From positions 36,788 to 97,738 of the IMG/VR virus record IMGVR_UViG_3300003324_001329: DNA of 60,951 bases; one strand, given 5' to 3'. The notes under the pieces are model-generated. The model saw only the letters and a list, made by a program, of their open reading frames with translations, searched no databases and was not told the origin of the DNA. Every line of letters begins with the position of its first letter. The first letter of the stretch is position 1. A program made the translations under genes and the position numbers. Origin of the DNA: a virus. Positions 5,887-36,557 of the stretch are shown here, piece after piece.

Positions 5887-6468
5887 ATGCCGACACCACG
5901 GCTGAGTGCCGTTCAGGGAATGCCCGATCCAGCGCCAAGTTGGATGTGGACGATGGATATCCTGATGCACGGCACCAACATTATTCAGGATTTGTACGTA
6001 TTGGAGGTGAATTTTCCCTTCGCCTACCTGGAATCTGCGGCACGATATCGGGCCGGGACGTTTTTATATTTTCCCGGCCACAGCAACATTGACAGCCCCG
6101 CCGTGACTTTCTACGAGACCGAGAGTTTTCAACTGTTACAGGCATTCAAATCCTGGCAGGATAAAATCCGCGACAACGACGGCAATTACGGAATGCCGGT
6201 GGATTATCTCGGCACCGTGGTTTTGCATCTGCACGATACCCGTGGGCAGGAACGGGCGCGCTGTTATTTGTACGGCTGCTGGCCGTCGCGCTTGGCCGAT
6301 TGGGCGATGAATTATCAAAATAGCACGCATTTGCAGGTGCAAGTGACGTTCGCCTGCAATGACAGTGAATTTATTTTCAACGACGCCACAGCGGCCGGCG
6401 TCAATCAGGCGTTGGCGCAATTGCAGCCGGAAATTAACCGCTTGGCCGAGGGCAACTTTACGTTCTAA
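5887..6468 (+). CDS. Second tail-tube-like protein (tube paralogue or tube initiator)
   Basis: 193 residues. Shares with its neighbour the opening '(L)SxVQxxPDxxxS', a 'PxVTFxExxSFQLLQAFKSW' helix and a final strand ending in sensitivity to F/Y ('QVTFACNDSEF'). This is the gp19/gp48-54 type arrangement. It may form the tube-baseplate junction, a minor tube ring, or a second tube protein; sequence alone does not decide. Confidence 0.7.
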   Translation: MPTPRLSAVQGMPDPAPSWMWTMDILMHGTNIIQDLYVLEVNFPFAYLESAARYRAGTFLYFPGHSNIDSPAVTFYETESFQLLQAFKSWQDKIRDNDGNYGMPVDYLGTVVLHLHDTRGQERARCYLYGCWPSRLADWAMNYQNSTHLQVQVTFACNDSEFIFNDATAAGVNQALAQLQPEINRLAEGNFTF

Positions 6469-6544
6469 TTTTATCCAGGTTTTTGCCCTGCTTGACGGCG
6501 TTGCAGCCATAAACGCCGCGTCTCCTGAATAACCCCGCCGCCAT

Positions 6545-6564
6545 TACGGCAATAATAAATGCCG
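6545..6564 (+). other. Small inverted repeat before chaperone gene
   Basis: ACGGCA and TGCCGT, six bases each, separated by 8 bases of AT-rich loop and ending just ahead of the AGGAG ribosome site for the ORF at 6578. Could form a leader hairpin that affects translation. No T run follows, so not an intrinsic terminator. Confidence 0.35.
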
Positions 6565-6577
6565 TGCAGGAGACACT

Positions 6578-7825
6578 ATGGCAACCCCACCCAATCCCGA
6601 ACGTCGCCGCATCCGCGTGCAACACTCCGGCGTGATTAATCCCGCCGAATTGGCGCAAGTGCGCCAGGATCACGCCGCCTCGCTGAATAATCCTCCGCGA
6701 GAAAATCCCAACCAAGCCCCGGTGGATAATCCACCCGAGCCACGCGCGCTGGATATCAGCGAATTGCAGGCCGCTTTTGCCAAGGCCGGACAGGCGGCGC
6801 CGAAATTTAATCGCCCGACGGCACCAGAAACCGCACGGGAAAAGCTGCCGACGGCGCGGGAGGAATTATTATCCTCCACAGCGGAAACTCCGGTCAGTGA
6901 ATTGCCATCAAGCGGTAACTCGCTGCAAACCGCCACCGAATTGCATCAGCATCGGGTCAACGGCAATATTGCACCCGGCCGCTTCACGGTACGGGAAATT
7001 CTCCCCTCTAACGGGGTATTTTATAATTATCCGGAATTGGCTATCCGGCCGTTATCAGTGCCGGATTACGCCAAACTGTACCGGGCACGCGCGGAAACCG
7101 ACGAAACTTTATTCATCGACACCATCGCCGGCTGTGTTTCCGGGGTGGATGTGCGCGATCTCAGCCTGAAAGATTTCCGCTACTTATTGTACAAAATCCG
7201 GCTGATTTCCACCCTGAAATCGCCGTACCAATTATCCTATACCTCGATGTACGGCAACCGCTGCACCTACACCGTCACTTCCACCAGCCTGGACGTGAAA
7301 ATCCTCGCTGCTACCGCGGAAGAATATCAGGCGTGGCAGCAGCGGGGATTTAATATCCCCACCTTGCGCGACTACGAAGAATATAATTCGATGGCGGTGA
7401 AATTGTCGCAGGAGGATGATTGGCTGTGGTCGCGGGCCAAATATATCCAGGGGTCATCGGTGGAGGATAAAATCCGCCGCTTGAAGCAGGAATTTGATCC
7501 GGATATTTTATTCACCGATCTGGAAGAATTTGTCCGCAAATTCGAGGAATACGGCGTCACCGAAAGCGTCGAGTTGGCGGATAATAAATTCAATGCGCAG
7601 GAGGCGTTGAAAAAACTGCGGGAGGATTTACGTCGCATAGATTTGGTGCTGGAAGCGCCAACCCTGCCGCCGGCCACCGCCGATGGATTATTGACCCGAC
7701 GCAGCGATGTAGCAGAAGAAATTCGCCGGCTGGAAACTGAACTTGCCAACACGGGGGAGGCGACGCCGAAGCGTGAAACCATCACATTCAGCTTGGAGAT
7801 AGCTGATTTCTTTCCCGTCTTATAG
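6578..7825 (+). CDS. Tail-assembly chaperone, upstream frame (T4 gp26-like)
   Basis: 415 residues behind AGGAG. After a disordered ~125-residue Pro/Ala/Asn-rich head comes 'FTVREILPSNGVFYNYPELA', 'IRPLSVPDYAKLYRARAETD' and 'DLSLKDFRYLLYKIRLIS'. That is the pattern I know for T4 gp26-type baseplate/tail chaperones of large phages. The C-terminal third is charged and helical (coiled-coil-like, ~residues 300-400). It lies between tube and tape-measure genes, the canonical place of frameshifted tail chaperones (lambda G/GT). The frame stops at 7825 inside an apparently conserved region that continues in another frame. Confidence 0.7.
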   Translation: MATPPNPERRRIRVQHSGVINPAELAQVRQDHAASLNNPPRENPNQAPVDNPPEPRALDISELQAAFAKAGQAAPKFNRPTAPETAREKLPTAREELLSSTAETPVSELPSSGNSLQTATELHQHRVNGNIAPGRFTVREILPSNGVFYNYPELAIRPLSVPDYAKLYRARAETDETLFIDTIAGCVSGVDVRDLSLKDFRYLLYKIRLISTLKSPYQLSYTSMYGNRCTYTVTSTSLDVKILAATAEEYQAWQQRGFNIPTLRDYEEYNSMAVKLSQEDDWLWSRAKYIQGSSVEDKIRRLKQEFDPDILFTDLEEFVRKFEEYGVTESVELADNKFNAQEALKKLREDLRRIDLVLEAPTLPPATADGLLTRRSDVAEEIRRLETELANTGEATPKRETITFSLEIADFFPVL

Positions 7826-8048
7826 TCTACGGGATTTGCTGCACCGGATTTATAATCTCTCCACACACTTGCCCAACTTACCGGATTTTATCTACGAAAA
7901 TGCCGCCTGGTTTTTCTACATTTCCAATGAGTTGGAAATGGACCGGATCAAGGCGGAAACAGCAGCACGCGCCGCGATAACCGCACGGGCCAACGCCGCC
8001 AACGATAGCGCACGTAATTCCATGCGCCGGCGCATGACGTTGGGTTGA
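7803..8048 (+). CDS. Tail-assembly chaperone, downstream frame (probable frameshift extension)
   Basis: This frame is open from 7803 (after TAG at 7800) to 8048. It encodes 'SYSLRDLLHRIYNLSTHLP', then 'FIYENAAWFFYISNELEMD' and an Ala/Arg-rich helical end. It has no good start codon or ribosome site near its 5' end: only TTG 7836 or a late ATG 7939 that would drop the conserved part. The overlap with the upstream ORF is 23 bases and contains TTT-CCC-G in the upstream frame. A +1 (or -2) shift there gives a ~489-residue fusion. Read as the extension of the gene before it. Confidence 0.65.
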   Translation: MISFPSYSLRDLLHRIYNLSTHLPNLPDFIYENAAWFFYISNELEMDRIKAETAARAAITARANAANDSARNSMRRRMTLG

Positions 8049-8069
8049 ATTTTTCGGAGAATATTAAGC

Positions 8070-10571
8070 ATGTCCGACACCACGGCTGATTTTGCCTCGC
8101 CATTCCCGCCGGCGCGGGATGAATTGATGCGGATGCTGAAACGCAGCAACGAACGGGCGGATAATTCCGCCCGTTTGTGGCAACAGCAAGCCCGCACCAT
8201 GGGGCGATTAACTACCGTGGTAGAAAATCTGGCGCGCAGTCACGCCACCCCACCCCGGCGCAGCGGGCGCGGCAATCCGGATCAGCCACGCGATCCGGCC
8301 ACTGGCCGATTTATTCGCGCCAGCGCGGCGCCGGATCGCTTGGCCAGCAATTATCTCAGCGAAATTTCCCGCGACAGCAAGCGGCAAGTTTCCACCCTGA
8401 ATGGAATTTCCCGCTTATTATCTTCCGCCGAAGCGGATCGGAAAACCAATACGCTGCAACAGGGCGTGATGTTCAGCCACATGCAGCAAACCATGCGCGA
8501 GATATTAAAAACCTTGCGCAATATGCACGGCGGCTTGGGTGGTGGCGGTGGATTATTCGACGGCCTGGGGGATTTATTTGGCGGTGGTGGCGGTCGTGGT
8601 CGCGCCGCACGGGCACCCCGCAGCGGGCCGGGATTTTTCGGCCGGATGCGCGGCCGGGCGGGAAGATTATTTGGCGGCCTCGGGCGGGGAATTGGCCGCG
8701 GTGGCAGTTTATTAGGCCGTGGCGTAGGCGCGATTGGTCGCGGCATTGGCGCCATCGGCAGCGGGGCTGGAAGATTATTAAGCGGCGTGGGTCGGGTTGG
8801 CGGTTTGGCGATGCGCGGCCTGGGTTCGGTGGCTGGACCCTTAGCCGCCGTGGGATTAATGGATGATTTATCCACTTTGGCCACGCCGGAATCCCGTAAT
8901 ACACCATTTATGGGCGATGAAAGCACCGGCGGAATATTAGGCTCACGATTTTCCCGCTACGCCACTTCGGCTTTATCTGGCGCCACTTTAGGCGGCGTGG
9001 CCGGTTCGGCTTTTGCTGGCGTCGGCGCTATTCCCGGCGCAGCCGCCGGCGCGGCAGCAGGATTGGCGGCAGCGATTTATGCCGATCTGGCGCCGCAAAT
9101 AAACACCATGGTTGGCAGTTTAACCAAAAAAGCCACCGGCATGGTCACAGATTCGGTCAGTTGGATTGCTGATAAACTGCCGTCGTGGAATGATATTGTC
9201 ACCGGCTCGACTAATATTGCTTCGGCTATTGCCGAGGGCACCAAATCTCTCGCTACTGCGGTTGCCAACAAGGTATCAGATATCAGCAGCAAAGCTGCCG
9301 AAGCAGTTAAATCTGGCGTGGTGGCAGCAGGAAATTTAGCCGAGCGGGCTGGCAGTACGATCGCTTCCGGCGCCCGCACGGTGGGCAGTGCTGCGATTTC
9401 TGGCGTGCAAGCCGCTGGCAGCGCAATTAGTTCCGGGGCACAAGCGGTTGGCAGTGCGGTTAGTTCCGGCGCCCAGGCAGCAGGAAGTTTAATCAGTCGG
9501 GGTTATAATGCCATTACCGGTGGTGGCAGTGATGCGGGCACCGATAAATATACCCCAGCCGGCACACCTATCAGCGGCAAGAATTTCCAGGAAAAATCGC
9601 CGAAGATTATGGCGAATTTAATGAAAGATTTCGGCCTAACCAAAGAGCAAGCCGCCGGCATTGTCGGTAATCTCGGCCACGAGTCCGGTGGATTTAATCA
9701 AATGCAGGAGATTAATCCCCTTGGCGGCGGGCAAGGCGGCTACGGTTGGGCGCAATGGACCGGACCACGACGACGGCAATTTTTCGATTGGGCCAAGGCA
9801 AATAATCTTGATCCCAATTCCGACGAAGCCAATTATGGCTTCCTCAAGCACGAATTATCCACCACGGAAAAAGGCGCGATTACCGCGGTCAAGAAAACCA
9901 GTACCGCTGACGATGCGATGCGTGCCTTTGAGGGAGGATTTGAGCGCGCCGGGGTTAAACATTATGGCAGCCGTGGCAAATATACCAACACGGCGCTCAG
10001 TGAATTTGATAAATCCCAGCAAGCGCAAGCTACGCAGCAGGCACAAGCTACCCCTGCCGCTTCGGCCACCAATCCACCGGCACCAGTTAATCGCAATCAG
10101 GAATTAACTGATTACACTGATTTCTCCACCACGTATCAAGGCGATCCACGCAAAATGCAGGAAGCCTGGAAGGCACATCAGGCACAATTGCAGCAAACCC
10201 GTGGCGATATTGCCGCGAAAAAAGCCGCCGGCACCTTGCCGCAATTAAGCGCGCAAGATAAAGCCCAGGCAGTGCTGCAAAATCCAGCATTATATAGTGC
10301 CGCTGATGTAGCGCAAGCCAAAGCCACATTAAATCAAGGCGGGACGGAAACCGCGCGCGATACTGCGGTAACTCCGGATAGATATATGCCGCCCAGCCCG
10401 CAAGGCGATTTTGGCGGACAAGCCAGCGCCGCGCCGCCGCCAGTGACTACGGAAACTGCCAGCCCACGCCGACAACAAATGGCCGGTGGCGGTTTACCAT
10501 CTCTGGATGAAATACCCATGTCGATCAGCGATAACGGAATTATTCTCGTCAATGCCGGGCATCTGGCGTAG
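8070..10571 (+). CDS. Tape-measure protein with tail-lysozyme domain
   Basis: 833 residues. Residues ~1-140 are helical and Arg-rich; ~150-250 are Gly/Arg-rich; ~245-345 contain hydrophobic Gly/Ala segments able to insert into membrane; ~400-490 carry degenerate 'AGSAISSGAQAVGSA' repeats typical of tape measures. Residues ~505-650 form a phage tail lysozyme domain (Phage_lysozyme2 type), with 'GIVGNLGHESGGFNQ' (Glu538 as likely catalytic acid) and 'GGYGWAQWTGPRR'. The protein should set tail length and cut peptidoglycan on entry. The C-terminus is low-complexity Ala/Gln/Pro. Confidence 0.88.
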   Translation: MSDTTADFASPFPPARDELMRMLKRSNERADNSARLWQQQARTMGRLTTVVENLARSHATPPRRSGRGNPDQPRDPATGRFIRASAAPDRLASNYLSEISRDSKRQVSTLNGISRLLSSAEADRKTNTLQQGVMFSHMQQTMREILKTLRNMHGGLGGGGGLFDGLGDLFGGGGGRGRAARAPRSGPGFFGRMRGRAGRLFGGLGRGIGRGGSLLGRGVGAIGRGIGAIGSGAGRLLSGVGRVGGLAMRGLGSVAGPLAAVGLMDDLSTLATPESRNTPFMGDESTGGILGSRFSRYATSALSGATLGGVAGSAFAGVGAIPGAAAGAAAGLAAAIYADLAPQINTMVGSLTKKATGMVTDSVSWIADKLPSWNDIVTGSTNIASAIAEGTKSLATAVANKVSDISSKAAEAVKSGVVAAGNLAERAGSTIASGARTVGSAAISGVQAAGSAISSGAQAVGSAVSSGAQAAGSLISRGYNAITGGGSDAGTDKYTPAGTPISGKNFQEKSPKIMANLMKDFGLTKEQAAGIVGNLGHESGGFNQMQEINPLGGGQGGYGWAQWTGPRRRQFFDWAKANNLDPNSDEANYGFLKHELSTTEKGAITAVKKTSTADDAMRAFEGGFERAGVKHYGSRGKYTNTALSEFDKSQQAQATQQAQATPAASATNPPAPVNRNQELTDYTDFSTTYQGDPRKMQEAWKAHQAQLQQTRGDIAAKKAAGTLPQLSAQDKAQAVLQNPALYSAADVAQAKATLNQGGTETARDTAVTPDRYMPPSPQGDFGGQASAAPPPVTTETASPRRQQMAGGGLPSLDEIPMSISDNGIILVNAGHLA

Positions 10572-10582
10572 GAGATTAAATC

Positions 10583-11362
10583 ATGTCAGGCACCAGCACG
10601 GTACCCGCCTCACTAGCCAATCTAAATAGAAACTACCTGATTAGAATTTGGGGCCAGGATGAAAATAAAACCCCGGTGGATATCATTGCCGCCGCGCCGG
10701 AGGAATTTTCTCTCGATGTATCCTCGGATTGGCAGCCATTATTAAGCGGCATGGGCGATCAAATGCTGGAACGCCTGGGTAAAACCGGCGCTGCCGCACG
10801 GGCCACCGAACGGGTGGCAAATATGACCGGCTACACCTTTCAGAATACTTTTATGACCCAACAGGTGTGGAACTCAACCTCACCGATTGAATTGCGTATT
10901 CCGATTAAATTCAACGCGGTATATAATGCCCGGAGTGAAGTCACCACGCCGATTTTACGCCTATTAAGTCTGTGTCTGCCGTCGGAAATATTCGACACTT
11001 CCGGTAGCACCATTGGCGATTATATCGAACAATTTTTACCCTTGCACGCGCCAGGGCCGACCATCGCCGGCGAGGGCAAGGGTGGCAGCACGTATAATAT
11101 CAGTGTCTCGGTTGGCCGGGTGTTGACATTTACCAATGTGATTATCACCAACGTCTCGGCGGTATTCCATACCCTGCCCAGCCGGGAGGGAGATTTTATT
11201 GCCGCCGACGTGGACGTGTCGCTGCGCACCAGCCGGATTTTAACCAAACGCAATCTGGCCAACATCTTCAAGAATATTCAATTGAGCGATGGACAAATTC
11301 CCACCGCAACACAAGTGCCAACGTCGATAGGTGGCCTCCTGGGTCTAGGAAGGGGGAATTAA
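10583..11362 (+). CDS. Baseplate/tail-tube adaptor candidate
   Basis: 259 residues, ATG behind AGGAG. Contains 'LNRNYLIRIWGQDENKTPVD', a Met/Leu-rich helix, and a strand-rich second half ('VGRVLTFTNVIITNVSAVFH'). It sits between tape measure and hub, where Mu has gp43 (N) and T4-like phages have tube-initiation proteins. Its N-terminus resembles that of the next ORF ('NLNxNYL'). No domain is recognised with certainty. Confidence 0.55.
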   Translation: MSGTSTVPASLANLNRNYLIRIWGQDENKTPVDIIAAAPEEFSLDVSSDWQPLLSGMGDQMLERLGKTGAAARATERVANMTGYTFQNTFMTQQVWNSTSPIELRIPIKFNAVYNARSEVTTPILRLLSLCLPSEIFDTSGSTIGDYIEQFLPLHAPGPTIAGEGKGGSTYNISVSVGRVLTFTNVIITNVSAVFHTLPSREGDFIAADVDVSLRTSRILTKRNLANIFKNIQLSDGQIPTATQVPTSIGGLLGLGRGN

Positions 11363-11365
11363 ATC

Positions 11366-11761
11366 ATGCCTGATGTAGTGTCGAATTTTCGCGGCAGTTC
11401 CACCAATCTAAACACGAACTATCTTTTTTCGCAGTTCGTGCCGACCATCACGGTGAAAGACAGCGACGGCTCGAAGTTAAATGTGTTGGAACCATTCAAC
11501 GTAAAAATGGGCCGGGCTATCGAGGCGGTACGGCCGATAGCTATTCGCCGCTACGTCAATGAGCCGATCACCACCATCACTTTCGAGCAATATAATAATA
11601 CCACCGCATGGTGGATGGTGATGCTGGCCTCGAAGGAATTGCACGCCTTGGCGGTGGAAAACGGCAAGATATTAACCCTGCCGGATATCAATAATATTCG
11701 CCGCTCCACCAGTCAGCGGTTTTTGACCGGGGTGCGGATACCGGTCTACGTCAGCATTTAG
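11366..11761 (+). CDS. Small baseplate protein (gp53/LysM-like)
   Basis: 131 residues, 3 bases after the previous stop. The C-terminal half 'YNNTTAWWMVMLASKELHAL' followed by 'GKILTLPDI' has the LysM-like pattern of T4 gp53 and P2 gpX (W-W at the helix start, G-x-x-L-x-x-P at the end), which clamps the baseplate inner ring. Location beside the hub gene agrees. Confidence 0.6.
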   Translation: MPDVVSNFRGSSTNLNTNYLFSQFVPTITVKDSDGSKLNVLEPFNVKMGRAIEAVRPIAIRRYVNEPITTITFEQYNNTTAWWMVMLASKELHALAVENGKILTLPDINNIRRSTSQRFLTGVRIPVYVSI

Positions 11762-11770
11762 GAGGCGAGG

Positions 11771-12934
11771 ATGGGACTGGCCATCAGCAATCAATTGCAA
11801 TTATCCTTGCGCATCGATGGCTTTGAAATACCGCTCGGCGCCTCGCCGGATTTGCGCCTGTTCATCAACCAATCCTGCCGGCAATTGCTGCCAACCATCA
11901 AGATAAATATTCCCGATGTGGCGAATGCGTTCGGCAAAACCCTGCCGGTGAACGACGGGTCCAGTATTGAAGCGGAATTTAACGACGATAAACGCCCGGC
12001 CTTCCAGGGCAGTGCGGTATTTCGTGCCTTCGGCACACCGCATCGCCAACCGTCCGGGCAAATGATGCTGTACAATATGGTCGGATTATTGGATGCGCTG
12101 CCCTACATTCGCGGCAACCCGCCCAATTCGCTGGACGGGACTTCGGTACAGGTGATGCAAAATGTTGCCAAGGCGATGAATTTTAATTACGTCGGCAACG
12201 TGGCGACCAACGATCAAATGATGTGGCGACCGGGGCGGAAAACCTGGGGCACCTTTACCCGCCATACCGCCATGCACGGCTGGATTTCCGATAAATCGGC
12301 GCTGGCAACCGCAGTCGATGAACAACGGCAATTGCACTACGTCGATATCAATGATTTATTCGCCAACGCCAAGGTGAAAGCGCGGATTATTTATGGCGCC
12401 GGCGCGCAGAACGCCACTTCTCAGCAAGTGCCGAATTTCGTCGCCACGGAATATCGTGCGGTCAACCGTTCGGGCATGTTGAATAATTGGCACGGCTACG
12501 GCCTGCGGATGACCCAGCACGGCATCAACGGCGCGGTGGATAAATTCCGCAACATCACGGCGATGAAATTGAACAATGTGCTGGATATCAACAAAGATAT
12601 TCTCGGCCAATTGGCCGGACGGGCGCGGATTGATCTCCCACCGATTGATACCGGCAACACCCACGATTTCTTTTTGCAAGCGCGGCATCACAATATGCGC
12701 AGTCTGGCGACTTATTCGCAGAATGTCTACGTCTTGGTGCCTGTAACCACCGGCTTGAACGTATTTGACATGGTAGAACTCGACGCCCGCTTGGGGGCCA
12801 ATTCCCCGGATTATTCTTCCTCGGGGCTATATTGTATCACCAACATGACGCGGGCCTTGGTCAATTCGCGCTATTGCGAACGGCTGGAATTAACCTCGGC
12901 CGGGCCACAAAACGACAATTCCTCTCTAGCGTGA
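11771..12934 (+). CDS. Baseplate hub protein (gp27/gpD-like)
   Basis: 387 residues behind AGGAGG. Begins with a beta-barrel-like segment ('LRIDGFEIPLGASPDLRLF'), has a central 'SVQVMQNVAKAMNFNYVGNV' helix as in gpD/gp44/gp27 hub proteins, and ends with another barrel ('MVELDARLGANSPDYSSSGLY'). Followed directly by the spike gene, as in Mu and T4. It should form the trimeric hub that joins tube to spike. Confidence 0.78.
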   Translation: MGLAISNQLQLSLRIDGFEIPLGASPDLRLFINQSCRQLLPTIKINIPDVANAFGKTLPVNDGSSIEAEFNDDKRPAFQGSAVFRAFGTPHRQPSGQMMLYNMVGLLDALPYIRGNPPNSLDGTSVQVMQNVAKAMNFNYVGNVATNDQMMWRPGRKTWGTFTRHTAMHGWISDKSALATAVDEQRQLHYVDINDLFANAKVKARIIYGAGAQNATSQQVPNFVATEYRAVNRSGMLNNWHGYGLRMTQHGINGAVDKFRNITAMKLNNVLDINKDILGQLAGRARIDLPPIDTGNTHDFFLQARHHNMRSLATYSQNVYVLVPVTTGLNVFDMVELDARLGANSPDYSSSGLYCITNMTRALVNSRYCERLELTSAGPQNDNSSLA

Positions 12935-16223: not shown

Positions 16224-17903
16224 ATGTCGTTTTTATCACAAATCACCGACGCCGGCATCGCCGCAGCCCTGGCCGCACAAGCCGGCGCGGTATTGATCGA
16301 CATGGGCACGGCGAGTTTTTCCTCGGATTTGATCGCCCAAGTGCCGTCCACCTTGCGCGCCATCACGGTGATGAATAATATCACCTACACCGCACCGGCC
16401 AATGCAGTGACGTACCACGTCATCAATGATAATACCATCATGTTCCGGGTGAATTTACCCCCAGGCGTCGGGCCGTTCAATTTCGGCTCGTATTCATTAA
16501 ATCTCGCCGATGGCACGGTGTTTGCCGTCGGCAGTTGGTCAAGTCTGCAAACCAAGGAAAGCGACAGCGCCCGCTACATCGAGCAGACAATTATTTTCAC
16601 CGGCGCCACCAACACCATTAATCTGACCATTATGAATACGATTGACGCCGCCTTGCCGGAAGTGCCAACGCAAGCCGATCTGCCTACCCCGGCGTCAGCG
16701 CCGTATCCGGCATATTTGGTCAACGAATTTACCCCCAATAAAGTGCAGGCATTGGCCACCCGCGATTTGGCCAACAACATCTGGAAATATTATCTGCCGC
16801 GGATGGACAGCGAAAATGCCATCAGCGGCGCCAGCCACGTTTATTCCGACAGCGACGCCGGCTCGATAATTGCCCGCAGCAATGCCGGCGCTAACATGGT
16901 GGATTTATTGCCTGATCCCTCCGCCTTGGAAGCCGGCTGGGAGCGGACGATTAAAAATGCCGACACGCATGGCATGTTGGGTATTCTCGTTGACCCAGGT
17001 TCCTCGGCCTTGCTGGATATAGGCAAGAAAATTCATTTGGGGCCAGGACAAAACGTAACGATTTATTGCGACGGAGTGAATTATTTTACCTGGGGCCGGC
17101 GGCCGGATCGTGCCCGCTGCTTCGGCGGCATGTTGGATTTATATTGCAATCCCAGCGGTGATGATAATAATACCGGTCTGTCCAGCACCAACGCCTTAGC
17201 GACGCTGAACGCCGCAATCGGTTTATTATATTGGACCTTCGATGGCGCTGGCAATCAAGCCACCATTCATCTCAGCACCGGCGATTTTAATACCGCCAGC
17301 CACAACGTCATCACGCCGAATTTTCCGTCGAATTTCAGTTATATTGTTATCAGCGGCGTCGGCGTCAGCACCAAAGTCAGCGCCACTTCCGGCATCGCCT
17401 TGGCGTTTGCCGGCGGTGGACATTGGGATTTGCGGGATTTTTCGGTGGAAGCCGGTGGCATCGATCCGGATGTTTATACCCCGTTGGGACGCGGAATATC
17501 TGCCTCGTTTGGTGCAATTGTTTATATTCGTGGCATTCATTTCGGCCCGTGCGGGCATTCGCACATCGAGTCCAACGATGGCGGCTATGTACATAATCTT
17601 GGCCTGGATTATTATATCTATGGCGATGCCCAATATCATTGGGTCGCTGCCGCCAACGGCTCGATCACGGTGCTGGATGGTCAGGTTTATAACGAAGAAC
17701 TCGGCACCAGTATCGGCACCTTTGCCTACTGCGCCGATGGAGCGATTATAAATTGCACCGGTGCCATCTTCAACGGCGGCTACGCCATCGGCGGGCAGAA
17801 ATATAATGTGTCGTACGGCGCTATTATTGCCACCGGCGGCGCCGGAGTGAATTATTTCCCCGGCACCGTGGCCGGCGTCAACACCAGCGGCTATTACATT
17901 TAA
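16224..17903 (+). CDS. Tail fibre/tail spike, beta-helical C-terminal half
   Basis: 559 residues. Residues ~1-150 look like the gpH-type attachment domain (alternating short strands, 'GTVFAVGSWSSLQTKES'). After a Pro-rich link (~150-175), residues ~285-540 contain regularly spaced Gly/Asn/Ser-rich strands ('DLYCNPSGDDNNTGLSSTNA', 'ISGVGVSTKV', 'DLRDFSVEAGGIDPD') typical of a right-handed beta-helix. This is the probable receptor-binding protein and may bind or cut surface polysaccharide. Confidence 0.78.
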   Translation: MSFLSQITDAGIAAALAAQAGAVLIDMGTASFSSDLIAQVPSTLRAITVMNNITYTAPANAVTYHVINDNTIMFRVNLPPGVGPFNFGSYSLNLADGTVFAVGSWSSLQTKESDSARYIEQTIIFTGATNTINLTIMNTIDAALPEVPTQADLPTPASAPYPAYLVNEFTPNKVQALATRDLANNIWKYYLPRMDSENAISGASHVYSDSDAGSIIARSNAGANMVDLLPDPSALEAGWERTIKNADTHGMLGILVDPGSSALLDIGKKIHLGPGQNVTIYCDGVNYFTWGRRPDRARCFGGMLDLYCNPSGDDNNTGLSSTNALATLNAAIGLLYWTFDGAGNQATIHLSTGDFNTASHNVITPNFPSNFSYIVISGVGVSTKVSATSGIALAFAGGGHWDLRDFSVEAGGIDPDVYTPLGRGISASFGAIVYIRGIHFGPCGHSHIESNDGGYVHNLGLDYYIYGDAQYHWVAAANGSITVLDGQVYNEELGTSIGTFAYCADGAIINCTGAIFNGGYAIGGQKYNVSYGAIIATGGAGVNYFPGTVAGVNTSGYYI

Positions 17904-17913
17904 GGAAAATAAA

Positions 17914-18540
17914 ATGTCGGACAGCAATGATGTAGGAACCTTGGTCGTCGATAGTTCGGTGGCCAGTGCCATAGTGCCGTTGCCAGCCGCACCGCGCAAT
18001 CTTTATAATGTCAAGGATTGGTACTGGACTATCGAAAATATTCCCGGCATGGTTTATTCCAGCGCGCGGGCGACCCTGGTGCCGGCCAATGACGCCGATT
18101 ATATTACCTGGCAGGAGATTAATCCCGACACCGGCAAACCGCTGCGCAAGCCAACCCGCATTGATACCATGCAAAGTTTAATGCAGGTATTGTTGCAGCA
18201 GTACCCGCAAGGCACGCCGATTGGGCAATTATTGGCGCTGATGGAAGGCAACCTGTGGGTGGAATGCACCAGCAATACCGACCTGAATGGGGTTTATTCC
18301 ATCGCTTCGGATCGCCGTTCGAATATCACCGGCATTGCCACATCCATTAATGCTGGCCTGGGTTTGCCAGGCGGCGGGGCGACGTTTAATTATCCCGACG
18401 CGACCGGGGTGCCGCATCCGTGGCCGGCGGATAAATTCATCGCTTTTGCCAAGGTGGTGATGGATTATGTCTATGCGTTGTCGCAAAATGCCGGCGGCAA
18501 TCCGGTGCCACTACCGGATCAGCCGATTGTTATTCCATGA
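17914..18540 (+). CDS. Tail-fibre accessory protein (DUF4376-like candidate)
   Basis: 208 residues, 10 bases after the fibre stop. The 'DRRSNITGIATSINAGLGLP' and 'FIAFAKVVMDYVYAL' segments recall the DUF4376-type region found in fibre-associated phage proteins. The end is Pro-rich. The gene overlaps the next by ATGA, so translation is probably coupled. Likely a fibre chaperone or tip component; the assignment is tentative. Confidence 0.5.
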   Translation: MSDSNDVGTLVVDSSVASAIVPLPAAPRNLYNVKDWYWTIENIPGMVYSSARATLVPANDADYITWQEINPDTGKPLRKPTRIDTMQSLMQVLLQQYPQGTPIGQLLALMEGNLWVECTSNTDLNGVYSIASDRRSNITGIATSINAGLGLPGGGATFNYPDATGVPHPWPADKFIAFAKVVMDYVYALSQNAGGNPVPLPDQPIVIP

Positions 18541-32206: not shown

Positions 32207-32827
32207 GTGCCCATCACCCGTGAATTTGTCGCCCAATTGGCGCCGCAACTTAAACTGGAATTGATCGCCGAATTAACCGCCGCCCTGCTGTATTTTCCAC
32301 CCCGCTACGGCATCGACAACCCCGGCCAGTTGCAGGTGTTTCTCGCCCAACTGGCCCACGAATCCGCCGATTTTACCCGGCTGGTGGAAAATCTTAATTA
32401 TCGCGCCGACCGTTTGCCGATAGTCTGGCCGGATCGTTTTCCTGACGCTGCTACCGCAGCGGTGTACGCGCATCAACCGCAAAAACTCGCCAATTACGTC
32501 TACGCCAATCGTATGGGCAACGGCTCCGCTGCCTCCGATGACGGCTGGCAGTTTCGCGGTCGGGGGTTAATTCAATTGACCGGGCGGGATAATTATCAGC
32601 AATTCGCCGCCAGCGAAAGCCTGGATTTGGCGGTGTTGGCGGATTATCTCTCCACCTATTTTGGCGGCGTGCATAGTGCCTGCTGGTACTGGCAAAGCAA
32701 TAAACTGCACGATTGCTGCGACCGCGCCACCATGCGCGAGGCCACCTATTGCATCAATCGTAGCTACACCAGTCTGCCGGAGCGGCTGCGCCGCTACGAT
32801 CAAATCGTGCAAATCTGGCCGGTTTGA
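32207..32827 (+). CDS. GH19 endolysin (chitinase-like muramidase)
   Basis: 206 residues from GTG 32207 behind GGAGG. 'VFLAQLAHESADFTRLVENL' contains the catalytic Glu52 of family-19 glycosidases, and 'DGWQFRGRGLIQLTGRDNYQ' is the typical substrate-cleft motif, preceded by 'LANYVYANRMGNG'. No signal peptide. It should hydrolyse peptidoglycan at lysis. No holin is adjacent; the membrane protein at 18537 is a candidate. Confidence 0.9.
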   Translation: MPITREFVAQLAPQLKLELIAELTAALLYFPPRYGIDNPGQLQVFLAQLAHESADFTRLVENLNYRADRLPIVWPDRFPDAATAAVYAHQPQKLANYVYANRMGNGSAASDDGWQFRGRGLIQLTGRDNYQQFAASESLDLAVLADYLSTYFGGVHSACWYWQSNKLHDCCDRATMREATYCINRSYTSLPERLRRYDQIVQIWPV

Positions 32828-32898: not shown

Positions 32899-35523
32899 AT
32901 GCGCAATTTTCGCCAATATCTACTGGCCGGGGCAGTGGCTTGCTTCGGCTTATTTAATACTCCCGCCAGCGCCAAGCCGCTGCCGGACGGACCTTTTTCC
33001 GTCAAGGGTGCGTTGATCCTCGCCCCCGACGGCAGCCCGGTCAGATTATCCGGTTTTCATTATTGGCCAGCGGATAATCAGGCGCAGATCGAAGCAGATT
33101 TCCGCAAGATGTTGAGCGAAGGCGCCAACGTGGTGCGGGTGTCGTGGCTGAATAAATATATCCGCAGCAGCAACCGCGATTTGTTGCTGTTGGATCGCAC
33201 CATCGCCGCTGCCGATGCCACCGGCATGAAGGTTATTCTGGATAATCACGCCAACAATGGCGAAAATGAACCCTGTTGGGCGCAGCAAGCCAACGGCCTG
33301 TGGTACGATACCAACGAAGGCCAGTATAATGCCGCCAAGGATAATAACGACGGCTGCGGCCGCAACGGCGGCACCACTCATGCGCAATGGGTCAAGGATT
33401 GGGCCACTCTGGCGCAACGCTACGCTGGGCGTAGATCGGTCATCGGCGCTGATTTGCACAATGAGCCGATTAATTATGGCTTTGGCGCCGACTGGACGAC
33501 CAATAATGTCGCGCGCAATTTGCGCCTCGCCTATCAGCAAGCCGGCAACGAAATTCTCAAATACGCCGACTGGCTGATTATTGCCGAGGGCAGCCAGGAT
33601 TATTCCGGTGGCCCGGCCGGCAAGGCACCGTGGGGCGATCTCAGCCAAGTGCAGGCCAACCCGCTGCAATTATCCAAGCCGCGCGTGGTGTATTCGGTGC
33701 ATGATTATCCGGTGGAGACTTCCGGCTTCAATCCCGACGGCGGTGATGCCAAATACCAGCAGGCGATGAAAATCTACGGCTACCTGACGGAGAATAATAT
33801 TGCCCCGGTGCTGATTGGTGAATGGGGCGCCAACATGAAGGCGGCCAACGATCCATCCTACGTGCAAACCCTGGTGGATCGCTATATGAATAAATATCCG
33901 CTGCGGGTGCATTCGACTTTTTATCTCTGGAACAATTCGTCCAATTGCAACAACACCCAGCCCTGCGGCGCGGTGGATGGCAACGGCAACGTCCGCCAGG
34001 ACGTGAAGGCAAATAATTGGGCTAAGGTTATTTGGAAAGGCACCGAGACCGATCCCGCCCTGGGGAATAATCCCCCGCCGCCACCGCCGCCGGTTTTTAC
34101 CGAAAGCAAGGATCGCACTTCCATAACCTCGGCCAACGATCCGCCGATTATCAATTCGGTCGGGGATAAATGGACCCTCACCGCTGACGGCAAGGTGGCG
34201 GTCAATGGTGTAGCGGATGACAGCACCGGGCGGGTGGTGCGCGGGTTTTATCTTGGCCACGAATTTTATCAGCAAAACGCCGACAACAATTGGTGGAAAA
34301 AGAAACTGGCCGCCGACCCTTGGGCGCAAGTCAGTGATCCGACGGGGGGACAAATTCCCCCGACCACCACTGTCACCAAGGGGCAATGGCAGCAATTAAC
34401 CCTCGGCGGCATGACGTATTTTATTTTGCCGCCGGCGCAAATCGAGGCGGGCAAAACTTATCCGCTGGTGCTGTTTTTGCATCAGTTCGAAAATGCCTCC
34501 GGCATTCCCGCGCAATTGGAGCCGTGGTTTAATACCGTGGCGTGGCGCTCCAAATATCCCGCCTACATCGTCGCCCCGCAATGCTGGAACAATAATAACG
34601 ACGTGAATTGGGGCGGCGTCAACGGCCAGATCACCAATTGTGAAAAACAAGCGGTTGCGATAGCGAAGGCAGTCGCCGCAGCCAATCAGGTGGATAAAAA
34701 TCGCCTGTACGTCACCGGAGATTCGATGGGCGGCATCGGCTCCTGGGAAGCGGCGATTCAATTCAATGCGCAAACTGGCCGGCAAGAAAAAATCTTCGCC
34801 GCCTTCCTGCCCCTGGCTGGCGCAGTTTATTCCTACGGTTTTCCCCAGCCGAATGCGGATGTATTAACCGCTCTGGCCAATGTGCCGATTTACGCCATCC
34901 ACGGCGCCAACGATACTTCGGTGCCGCTGGATTGGGATCGCAATGTGAAAGCGTCGAATAAACTGAGCAAATTCACCTACGAGGAAGTCCCCGGCTACGG
35001 CCATGACGTGTGGGATGATTTTTATCCATTGCCGAAGGGGCAAAAATATTGGGATTGGCTGTTCCAGCAGGCGGCAAATAATGTGGTGGTTACGCCGCCA
35101 CCGCCGGTGGTAAATGAATCCGCCGAAGGCACCTTGGTTGACGAGGTTTCCGACAGCGCGATTATTGATGCCACCGGCGCCAAATGGACCTTGGTAAATA
35201 CTGCCGCCAACGGTTTGCGCATCGCGGTCAATGGCGCCCCCGACACCGCCACCGAGCGGGTGGTTAAATTGCTCTACAGCGCGCGGGAGCATCGCATCTA
35301 CCAGATGAACCTGGATAATAACTGGTGGTGGAAGTCCAAGCCGGCGGATAATTGGACCGCTTCGGCGGCACCGAATATCGTCGGCACCGCCATCACCCAT
35401 CAGACCGTGTTGGAGGAATTAAATTCCCTGACTGCATTGCTGGCCGCTTCGCCGGTTAATCTCACCGAGGTTAATAAACTCCTGGGTCAGATCAAGACCG
35501 ATGTTGGGGTGTTGAAGCCGTAA
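32899..35523 (+). CDS. Secreted GH5-type cellulase fused to alpha/beta-hydrolase esterase
   Basis: 874 residues. A signal peptide (MRNFRQYLLAGAVACFGLF, cut after 'TPASA') is followed by a GH5-like barrel (~30-370) with acid/base Glu189 in 'GADLHNEP' and nucleophile Glu308 in 'LIGEWGAN'. Residues ~400-480 and ~738-825 are two copies of a carbohydrate-module-like domain ('KWTL...VAVNG...NNWWxK'). Between them lies an esterase (~490-730) with 'TGDSMGG' (Ser609), 'HGAND' (Asp672) and 'GYGHD' (His702). Predicted to degrade cellulose-like polysaccharide and remove ester groups. AAGGA lies before the start. Looks like an acquired, separately regulated gene. Confidence 0.85.
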   Translation: MRNFRQYLLAGAVACFGLFNTPASAKPLPDGPFSVKGALILAPDGSPVRLSGFHYWPADNQAQIEADFRKMLSEGANVVRVSWLNKYIRSSNRDLLLLDRTIAAADATGMKVILDNHANNGENEPCWAQQANGLWYDTNEGQYNAAKDNNDGCGRNGGTTHAQWVKDWATLAQRYAGRRSVIGADLHNEPINYGFGADWTTNNVARNLRLAYQQAGNEILKYADWLIIAEGSQDYSGGPAGKAPWGDLSQVQANPLQLSKPRVVYSVHDYPVETSGFNPDGGDAKYQQAMKIYGYLTENNIAPVLIGEWGANMKAANDPSYVQTLVDRYMNKYPLRVHSTFYLWNNSSNCNNTQPCGAVDGNGNVRQDVKANNWAKVIWKGTETDPALGNNPPPPPPPVFTESKDRTSITSANDPPIINSVGDKWTLTADGKVAVNGVADDSTGRVVRGFYLGHEFYQQNADNNWWKKKLAADPWAQVSDPTGGQIPPTTTVTKGQWQQLTLGGMTYFILPPAQIEAGKTYPLVLFLHQFENASGIPAQLEPWFNTVAWRSKYPAYIVAPQCWNNNNDVNWGGVNGQITNCEKQAVAIAKAVAAANQVDKNRLYVTGDSMGGIGSWEAAIQFNAQTGRQEKIFAAFLPLAGAVYSYGFPQPNADVLTALANVPIYAIHGANDTSVPLDWDRNVKASNKLSKFTYEEVPGYGHDVWDDFYPLPKGQKYWDWLFQQAANNVVVTPPPPVVNESAEGTLVDEVSDSAIIDATGAKWTLVNTAANGLRIAVNGAPDTATERVVKLLYSAREHRIYQMNLDNNWWWKSKPADNWTASAAPNIVGTAITHQTVLEELNSLTALLAASPVNLTEVNKLLGQIKTDVGVLKP

Positions 35524-35535
35524 CCATTCCCCGCC

Positions 35536-35564
35536 GCCGGCGGTAAAGTAGTTTTACCGCCGGC
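35536..35564. terminator. 12-base hairpin after cellulase gene, contains TAAAGT
   Basis: GCCGGCGGTAAA (35536-35547) pairs fully with 35553-35564; loop 5 bases. It lies 12 bases after the cellulase stop and has no T run. Could terminate in both directions or process mRNA. The GGTAAAGTA promoter motif falls within it (TAAAGT 35544-35549), so it may also be a promoter for the next gene. Confidence 0.5.
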
Positions 35565-35582: not shown

Positions 35583-36557
35583 TTGAGCCATCCCGTTCGC
35601 AAGGCTCTGCTGGCAGTCCAGCAGGGCCATTATTTTTTGCCTGCCGAGCCGCCGCGCTTTCGCGTCAGTGGCTTGCCGTTTTGTCCGATTTTATTTGCCC
35701 TGGAAGCCAAGCAACCGCAGCGCAGCGTGGAATTTGAATCCGGGTTTTATTTTAATATTGGCCACGCCTTGCACAATCTGTGGCAAACCGTCGGCCCGCA
35801 CAGCCTGCCGGATGAATTGATTGGCGACTGGCAATGCACGCGGGTTTTGCAGGAAAGCGGCAACAAACGCACGAAGATTATTCACCGCTGCGGCCGGGTG
35901 CAGGAATTTTCCACCTTCAACCACGCCAAGCGGGCGGTTTGTCCGCACGGCAAAACCGATTGCGCCGATTATTTGACGTACAAGGAACTGGAATTTGAAT
36001 GGCACGGCCTGACCGGGCACACTGATTTTCTTTTGCGTGATAAACGCGGCCGCTACCATCTGGTCGATTTCAAGACCACCAGCAATTTTTTGTTCGAAAA
36101 GCCAAAATTCGCCATCCAGCAAGGCTATTATCCCAACCAGCGTTATTTGGAACAATTGCGTGCCTACGTGATAATGATCGAGGCCAAATATAATATCAAG
36201 GTGCATGATTACACCGTCGCCTACCTGTCGCGGGAAAAAGCCTTGGAAGTCGGGCGGGATAAAAAACCCGCCTTGCGGCTATTCACCTATCTGGTGACGG
36301 ATAAAATCCGCCGCAGCCAACGCAAGCGGCATCGCGAATATCGCCGGCGTTATCGCAGCGTGCAACGCTGGCTGGAAAATCCGACCCGGCAGGCTACCCG
36401 ACGCTTATATGAAGCGCGGCCGTGCCACACCCGCCTGGAATATCTCAACGAAATGGCGGTGCGGTTTCTCAGCAATCAGCCGTGCGAACACCACGCCAGC
36501 GGCGCTTGCTACAACGGCAAGATGGAAAAACATCTGCGCCGATTGGCGGTAAAATAA
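35583..36557 (+). CDS. PD-(D/E)XK nuclease, RecB/Cas4-like
   Basis: 324 residues from TTG 35583 (GAGG upstream). 'GLTGHTDFLLRDKRGRYHLV' followed by 'DFKTTSNF' gives the G-x-x-D...D-F-K-T catalytic motif, with 'IQQGYYPNQRYLEQLRAYVI' as the Q-x-x-x-Y helix. Cys residues at 'GLPFCP' and near the C-terminus ('NQPCEHHASGACYNG') could bind a metal or Fe-S cluster, as in Cas4/AddB. Likely an exonuclease for recombination or DNA processing. Confidence 0.78.
   Translation: MSHPVRKALLAVQQGHYFLPAEPPRFRVSGLPFCPILFALEAKQPQRSVEFESGFYFNIGHALHNLWQTVGPHSLPDELIGDWQCTRVLQESGNKRTKIIHRCGRVQEFSTFNHAKRAVCPHGKTDCADYLTYKELEFEWHGLTGHTDFLLRDKRGRYHLVDFKTTSNFLFEKPKFAIQQGYYPNQRYLEQLRAYVIMIEAKYNIKVHDYTVAYLSREKALEVGRDKKPALRLFTYLVTDKIRRSQRKRHREYRRRYRSVQRWLENPTRQATRRLYEARPCHTRLEYLNEMAVRFLSNQPCEHHASGACYNGKMEKHLRRLAVK

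Follow-up and report, generated by a model that had tools for sequence, protein, structure and literature searches.

A phage gene beside an endolysin encodes a predicted exported GH5-esterase protein with two copies of an unnamed beta module

The locus and its phage setting

The window, the whole stretch of DNA analysed here, comprises 60,951 nucleotides and corresponds to bases 36788-97738 of the 97,738-base virus record IMGVR_UViG_3300003324_001329. Phage genes in this record include those for a sheath, a baseplate, a major head protein, an endolysin and an RNR. The major head protein is 34-39% identical to those of large myophages of Vibrio, Xanthomonas, Burkholderia, Achromobacter and Rhizobium, and because the records of these matched phages are ~190-260 kb long, the record is probably part of a larger genome.

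The gene under study is an intact open reading frame of 874 codons without internal stops (Table 1). It starts 71 bp 3' of an endolysin gene, is co-directional with its neighbours and has phage genes on both sides. Downstream lies a nuclease gene, followed by genes for a dCTP deaminase, several short open reading frames and a B12-type RNR. The tail cluster (sheath, tape measure, baseplate and fibre) ends ~13 kb upstream.

Table 1. Features of the enzyme gene and its surroundings (window positions unless stated otherwise)
Feature	Position	Strand	Basis or detail
Endolysin (phrog_181, GH19-like), without signal peptide	32207..32827	+	PHROG E 1.3e-55; weak GH19 Pfam match
Enzyme gene	32899..35523	+	
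Signal peptide, Sec/SPI type, residues 1-25, cleavage after ASA (residue 25)	32899..32973	+	Sequence and hydropathy
GH5 domain, residues 27-383	32977..34047	+	PDB matches, phrog_18474 7.9e-22, conserved residues
Catalytic Glu codons	E189 33463-33465; E308 33820-33822	+	
WW module 1 (KWTL..VAVNG..NNWW), residues ~404-484, after Pro linker	34108..34350	+	
Esterase, alpha/beta hydrolase, residues 495-727	34381..35079	+	PDB 3doh 2.3e-14, 3wyd 1.4e-9; profile 5.4e-20
Esterase triad codons	S609 34723-34725; D672 34912-34914; H702 35002-35004	+	
WW module 2, residues ~741-829	35119..35385	+	Mean pLDDT 94.7
C-terminal helical tail, helices 834-849 and 855-870	35386..35520	+	AlphaFold2 model
Hairpin, 12-bp stem, no U-tract	35536..35564	+	z -2.7
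PD-(D/E)XK nuclease	35583..36557	+	Pfam PF12705 3.1e-6, phrog_1706 1.3e-15
Tagged proteins (record positions)	886, 1545, 4133, 5175, 12302, 12784, 14573, 15952, 16965, 21418, 22112		

The initial annotation had read a hairpin immediately after the gene as one sign of a separate, moron-like unit. The hairpin is real, but the separate unit finds little support, because the neighbours are co-directional, the codon usage is native and there is no clear terminator. As an intrinsic terminator the hairpin itself is unsupported, since it has no U-tract and is absent from the terminator-like sites returned by a terminator scan. The 71-bp gap on the 5' side and the hairpin on the 3' side nonetheless make co-transcription with the endolysin gene less certain.

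The codon-usage distance between the enzyme gene and the rest of the record is 0.079 (z 0.3), the lowest among 36 long genes, which indicates that the gene most likely has belonged to the phage genome for a long time rather than arising from an assembly join. This value also counters the chimeric insert that had been named as the outcome that would undo the initial reading. Bacterial DNA joined by assembly, or very recent cargo, might be suspected in an environmental virus record, the more so as single-protein scans of viral_contigs and genome_contigs returned no close relative of the protein; the codon usage, the flanking phage genes and the relatives on viral contigs described below make either origin extremely improbable.

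Domain architecture and export signal

The protein consists of a signal peptide, a GH5 domain, a proline linker, a first WW module, an esterase domain, a second proline linker, a second WW module and a two-helix tail, and a short tail of similar look follows the WW module of a viral relative (L121). Thus the signal peptide, both GH5 glutamates, the Ser-Asp-His triad and the two repeated modules that had been noticed at first reading are all present in one phage protein, which is exported and multi-domain as far as its sequence can tell. An AlphaFold2 model built from a 30-row alignment gave separate and confident domains, with a GH5 domain of barrel-like order and both WW modules as confident all-beta units, in line with the domain assignments (mean pLDDT 78.7); the pTM of 0.49 means that the relative placement of the domains in this model is unreliable.

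The N-terminus, MRNFRQYLLAGAVACFGLFNTPASA followed by KP after the cleavage site, has a basic start, a hydrophobic core (maximum 12-residue hydropathy 2.36) and an AxA-type cleavage site, and was called as a signal peptide from sequence and hydropathy rather than by a trained predictor. A lipoprotein N-terminus, with Cys15 in AVAC as the modified residue, was set aside because Arg5 lies too near Cys15 and the AxA site fits; in the usual lipobox pattern the charged residue does not lie so close to the cysteine.

The GH5 and esterase domains

The GH5 domain matches the PDB entries 8fc0 (CelE2), 1vrx and 1ece (E1 endocellulase) at E ~1e-21, and its predicted model follows a TIM-barrel-like sequence of strands and helices. 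E189 lies in HNEP and E308 in GEWG, so that the NEP acid/base glutamate and the nucleophile glutamate of the family are both in place within the predicted barrel; both residues are invariant in comparison with five other GH5s, as are R80, H117, N188, H268, Y270 and W344. The Pfam Cellulase model PF00150 gave no match at E up to 0.1, which marks the domain as a divergent member. Acidothermus E1 and CelE2 share their fold, catalytic residues, secretion and modular build with the window protein, although the sequences of the GH5 domains are only distantly similar.

The esterase domain has a GxSxG nucleophile (S609 in GDSMGG), an aspartate and a histidine in the order expected of an alpha/beta hydrolase, and all three residues are kept in the relatives L091, L090 and L093. 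Because the score against NCBIfam esterase_phb (4.8e-5) is far below the curated cut-off, membership in the TM0033/PHB-depolymerase-like group of serine esterases is assigned at superfamily level only. The TM0033-type esterase (3doh) and LC-Est1C (3wyd) share the fold and triad order and, unlike the window enzyme, are fused to neither a GH5 domain nor a WW module. The esterase domain alone had no match in the phages collection. In two viral relatives, L159 (3337-5772) and L160 (4819-7335), the esterases have GGSPW where the others have GHDVW; the catalytic histidine appears to be absent from both, and these domains may therefore be inactive.

An unnamed beta module

The two WW modules are ~49% identical in a pairwise alignment and conform to a consensus of ~80 residues, D.SG..WTL..GG.VAVNG...T..V....Y....YQ.N....WW. 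Profile matches in the enzyme (1e-34 and 3e-31) place the motif beyond chance, and the only two motif matches in the whole window are both in the enzyme gene. In the predicted model, module 1 is all-beta with block pLDDT mostly 90-95, and module 2 is likewise all-beta and confident when folded alone (Table 1). The WW module is thus an unnamed beta module that folds confidently in prediction.

Searches of known families gave no match to Pfam below E 0.03 and none to PDB sequences, and a fold search gave nothing significant (best E about 0.5); the weak, sub-threshold top fold matches were beta-propeller blades, including those of Photorhabdus lectins. Identification as a known carbohydrate-binding module or a propeller lectin finds no support in these results. 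The module alone had no match in the phages collection, a module-pair scan yielded no confirmed relatives and a 12-module alignment contained no searchable stretch. The WW model finds two modules in the record and ten in four other viral records. In alphaproteobacterial genomes it found none (0/385), in a search that had no positive control within the class, although the same model does detect modules in virus records. Two of 399 sampled Pseudomonadota genomes carry the module, in lipoprotein-like, exported proteins that resemble glycosidases.

The modules had been described as sugar-binding-like. What holds is that they recur beside GH or esterase domains on most contigs that carry them; no binding family or fold was significantly matched. 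By this association with GH and esterase domains, we consider the WW module a candidate polysaccharide-binding module.

Relatives on viral contigs and in bacteria

Alignment scans of IMG/VR recovered L091, L090, L120, L093, L092, L121, L123, L156, L158, L159 and L160, open reading frames in which GH5 or GH5-like, esterase and WW parts occur in varied order. The protein had been called unusual, a description that needs qualifying given that relatives with the same parts lie on several other viral contigs. WW modules are found on nine viral contigs, including that of the window, with a GH or esterase domain alongside in all but L156, which matches neither enzyme profile; L092 has a GH5 domain without esterase or WW module. 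Some of the settings are those of phages: L158 is preceded by a portal gene, L092 is followed by a tail-tube gene and L120 comes after a baseplate J gene.

L159, L160 and L091 share all three parts with the window protein, in different domain orders. L159 and L160 are both esterase-WW-GH5 proteins with signal peptides, and are thus exported by sequence. L160 lies 37 bp 3' of a GH108 endolysin gene, directly after it as in the window, although the endolysin families differ. L091, a GH5-WW-esterase-WW-..-WW protein, is longer than the window protein, lacks a signal peptide and has a GH108-type endolysin gene a few genes upstream. Six members have signal peptides (the window protein, L090, L093, L156, L159 and L160). 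Only two of these directly follow an endolysin gene, a share that counts against the exit role proposed below but is nonetheless above chance among ~100 genes by an informal estimate of a pattern noticed post hoc.

The contig that carries L090, L091 and L120 (IMGVR_UViG_3300048861_000143, 149.8 kb) has at least three GH/esterase multi-domain genes. Besides baseplate and endolysin genes it contains TrbI, T2SSE-family ATPase and VirD4/TraG-type coupling genes; these conjugation genes give it a mixed nature, and it is possibly a phage-plasmid. The tail-fibre gene of the window and the gene next to it (16224-18540) have relatives on the L091 contig (27%, E 2e-14; 36%, E 7e-33), which suggests that tail modules may have been exchanged between the two phages.

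In a maximum-likelihood tree, the window GH5 groups with those of L090, L091, L092, L093 and L123 (100/99), while the sampled bacterial enzymes and the group of classical phage GH5s (22 rows, 100/98) lie elsewhere. In the esterase tree, all ten viral-contig esterases are split from five bacterial ones by a 100/100 branch. Both trees are bounded by the sampling of bacterial rows, and the window GH5 sits on a long branch. A bacterial GH5 outside the tree (L168, in G734) scored above the other bacterial hits against the lineage profile (1.7e-76), so bacterial members of this GH5 lineage probably exist. None of the sampled bacterial GH5 open reading frames contains an esterase or WW module. The gene beside L168 encodes a multi-TM protein without a Pfam match, putatively a polysaccharide polymerase. 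The initial annotation's choice of cellulose as the substrate therefore goes further than the comparisons do: the GH5 lineage is far from characterised cellulases, and its nearest sampled bacterial relative adjoins this putative polymerase gene.

Comparison with known phage GH5 enzymes

Phage depolymerases have mostly been described as parts of the virion that help entry. GenBank phage GH5s, from phages of Erwinia, Klebsiella, Serratia and Pseudomonas, match the GH5 part of the window protein only. Like the window protein, the four that were examined (S6 gp095 and those of phiEaP8, LASTA and Skulduggery) are phage-encoded, have the GH5 fold and catalytic residues and probably act on bacterial exopolysaccharide; two of the four adjoin GH48 proteins. 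The literature reports that S6 gp095 is a verified cellulase and that it acts in infection through host cellulose (PMC9544554). These proteins carry N-terminal choice-of-anchor-like or tail-adaptor domains and are encoded in tail or structural regions, whereas the window protein has a signal peptide, an N-terminal GH5 domain, an esterase domain and WW modules, is encoded next to an endolysin gene and belongs to a different, well-supported GH5 group. The attachment or adaptor domain and the tail-module position of a depolymerase of the S6 gp095 type are both absent.

The enzyme might nevertheless be a virion-borne depolymerase, a tail spike or fibre that aids adsorption, given that the phage GH5s already known are encoded in the company of tail, baseplate or structural genes (PMC9544554). 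Within the present family, L120 (WW modules and esterase) follows baseplate J and L092 (GH5) precedes a tail-tube gene. L120, with the same parts, occupies a tail-fibre slot, and virion forms therefore probably exist. For the window protein itself we regard this role as quite unlikely in view of its signal peptide, the lack of a phage adaptor or choice-of-anchor-like domain, the N-terminal position of the GH5 domain, the distance from the tail cluster and the separate group in the GH5 tree. The absence of virion context remarked on from the outset is thus borne out, with no virion-attachment domain found and the gene outside the tail cluster. From its sequence, the protein would belong within the known phage polysaccharide depolymerases as an exported enzyme, with a GH5-WW-esterase-WW build that appears to differ from that of tail-borne cellulases.

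A proposed role in phage exit

We propose that the protein is an exported, multi-domain polysaccharide-degrading enzyme of the phage exit programme, freed at lysis, and put the probability of this reading at roughly one in two. It is favoured because a signal peptide and intact active sites are combined with an endolysin gene 71 bp upstream; because L160 lies directly downstream, and L091 a few genes downstream, of GH108-type endolysins; because the GH5 and esterase domains group with viral-contig sequences and the WW module recurs on nine viral contigs, as well as in exported glycosidase-like proteins of two bacterial genomes; and because the protein has no virion-attachment domain and its gene lies 13 kb from the tail genes with native codon usage. 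The earlier suggestion that such an enzyme dissolves matrix before or at lysis fits its adjacency to the endolysin gene, its export signal and its non-tail position.

In this scheme the enzyme would be made late, together with the neighbouring endolysin, and the signal peptide would carry it across the inner membrane of the host. Sec export alone ends in the periplasm, and passage beyond it needs a further secretion step; the enzyme would thus either be held in the periplasm or be passed onward by a host secretion system. Once the endolysin opened the cell, it would be released to the surrounding matrix, where the two WW modules would anchor it on the polymer, conceivably cellulose. The GH5 domain would cleave the beta-linked backbone while the esterase stripped acyl groups that block cleavage, and the loosened exopolysaccharide around the dying cell would allow the progeny to spread, to the benefit of the phage.

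The gene could instead be an auxiliary metabolic gene whose exported product digests plant or environmental polysaccharide to feed the infection. The GH5 domain resembles the extracellular endocellulases of saprophytes, and enzymes that pair a GH with an esterase are well suited to acetylated plant polymers. Activity has been proven for glycosidases of soil viruses (PMC9485262), including the chitosanase V-Csn, whose gene lies on a soil viral contig and is treated as an auxiliary metabolic gene; V-Csn appears to differ from the window protein in enzyme type and domain build, and the passages of that paper concerned with it link it to no role in lysis. Against a metabolic function, an extracellular enzyme would come too late and act at too great a distance to nourish a cell near lysis, the neighbourhood shows no recognisable sugar uptake gene, the enzyme gene adjoins an endolysin gene, as does L160, and the nearest sampled bacterial GH5 relative adjoins a putative polysaccharide polymerase gene. 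We therefore consider it unlikely.

The same export signal would also fit an enzyme that acts early, removing a surface polysaccharide receptor and so blocking superinfection or the loss of progeny on debris, and cellulose is reported as a phage receptor in Erwinia (PMC9544554). The place of the gene among lysis genes suggests late expression, and receptor stripping is on this ground very unlikely. If the exit role is correct, a recurring exported enzyme beside the endolysin would represent an added matrix-clearing step at phage exit, and could account for part of the secreted glycosidases on viral contigs that are counted as auxiliary metabolic genes.

Other features of the record

Some 58 kb 5' of the enzyme gene, the record has a polysaccharide-synthesis-like set (record bases 5943-11980), which consists of genes for TackOD1, a GT2 glycosyltransferase, an HlyD-like protein, a 443-aa protein and an NAD epimerase. 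The HlyD-like call was made by eye, with weak Pfam matches; the 443-aa protein is a candidate glycosidase-like protein by reading, with no family match. A Phyllobacterium plasmid shares the order TackOD1-GT2-HlyD, and a Roseibium plasmid shares TackOD1-GT2. A scan of viral_contigs found no close relative of the phage GT2, and a search of GenBank phages for TackOD1 found nothing. Codon usage in the set is phage-like except for the epimerase (z 2.8). It is a speculative thought, and a very unlikely one, that several unrelated phage groups share a kit of this GH5 lineage, the esterase and the WW module as an additional, exported lysis component for matrix removal at exit, paired here with a synthesis set such that a coat would be built during infection and removed at its end.

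Eleven mostly unrelated proteins of the record share an N-terminal tag that reads approximately M(P/S)IxRRLxIFA (Table 1); two of them appear ADP-ribosyltransferase-like by eye and one is a Nudix protein. By analogy with the internal proteins of T4, which are packaged in the head, the tag is a candidate targeting signal for head-packaged proteins. A further stretch of the phage record (L003, 9377-11497) encodes the catalytic core of a eukaryote-type topoisomerase I (PF01028, 3.3e-19).
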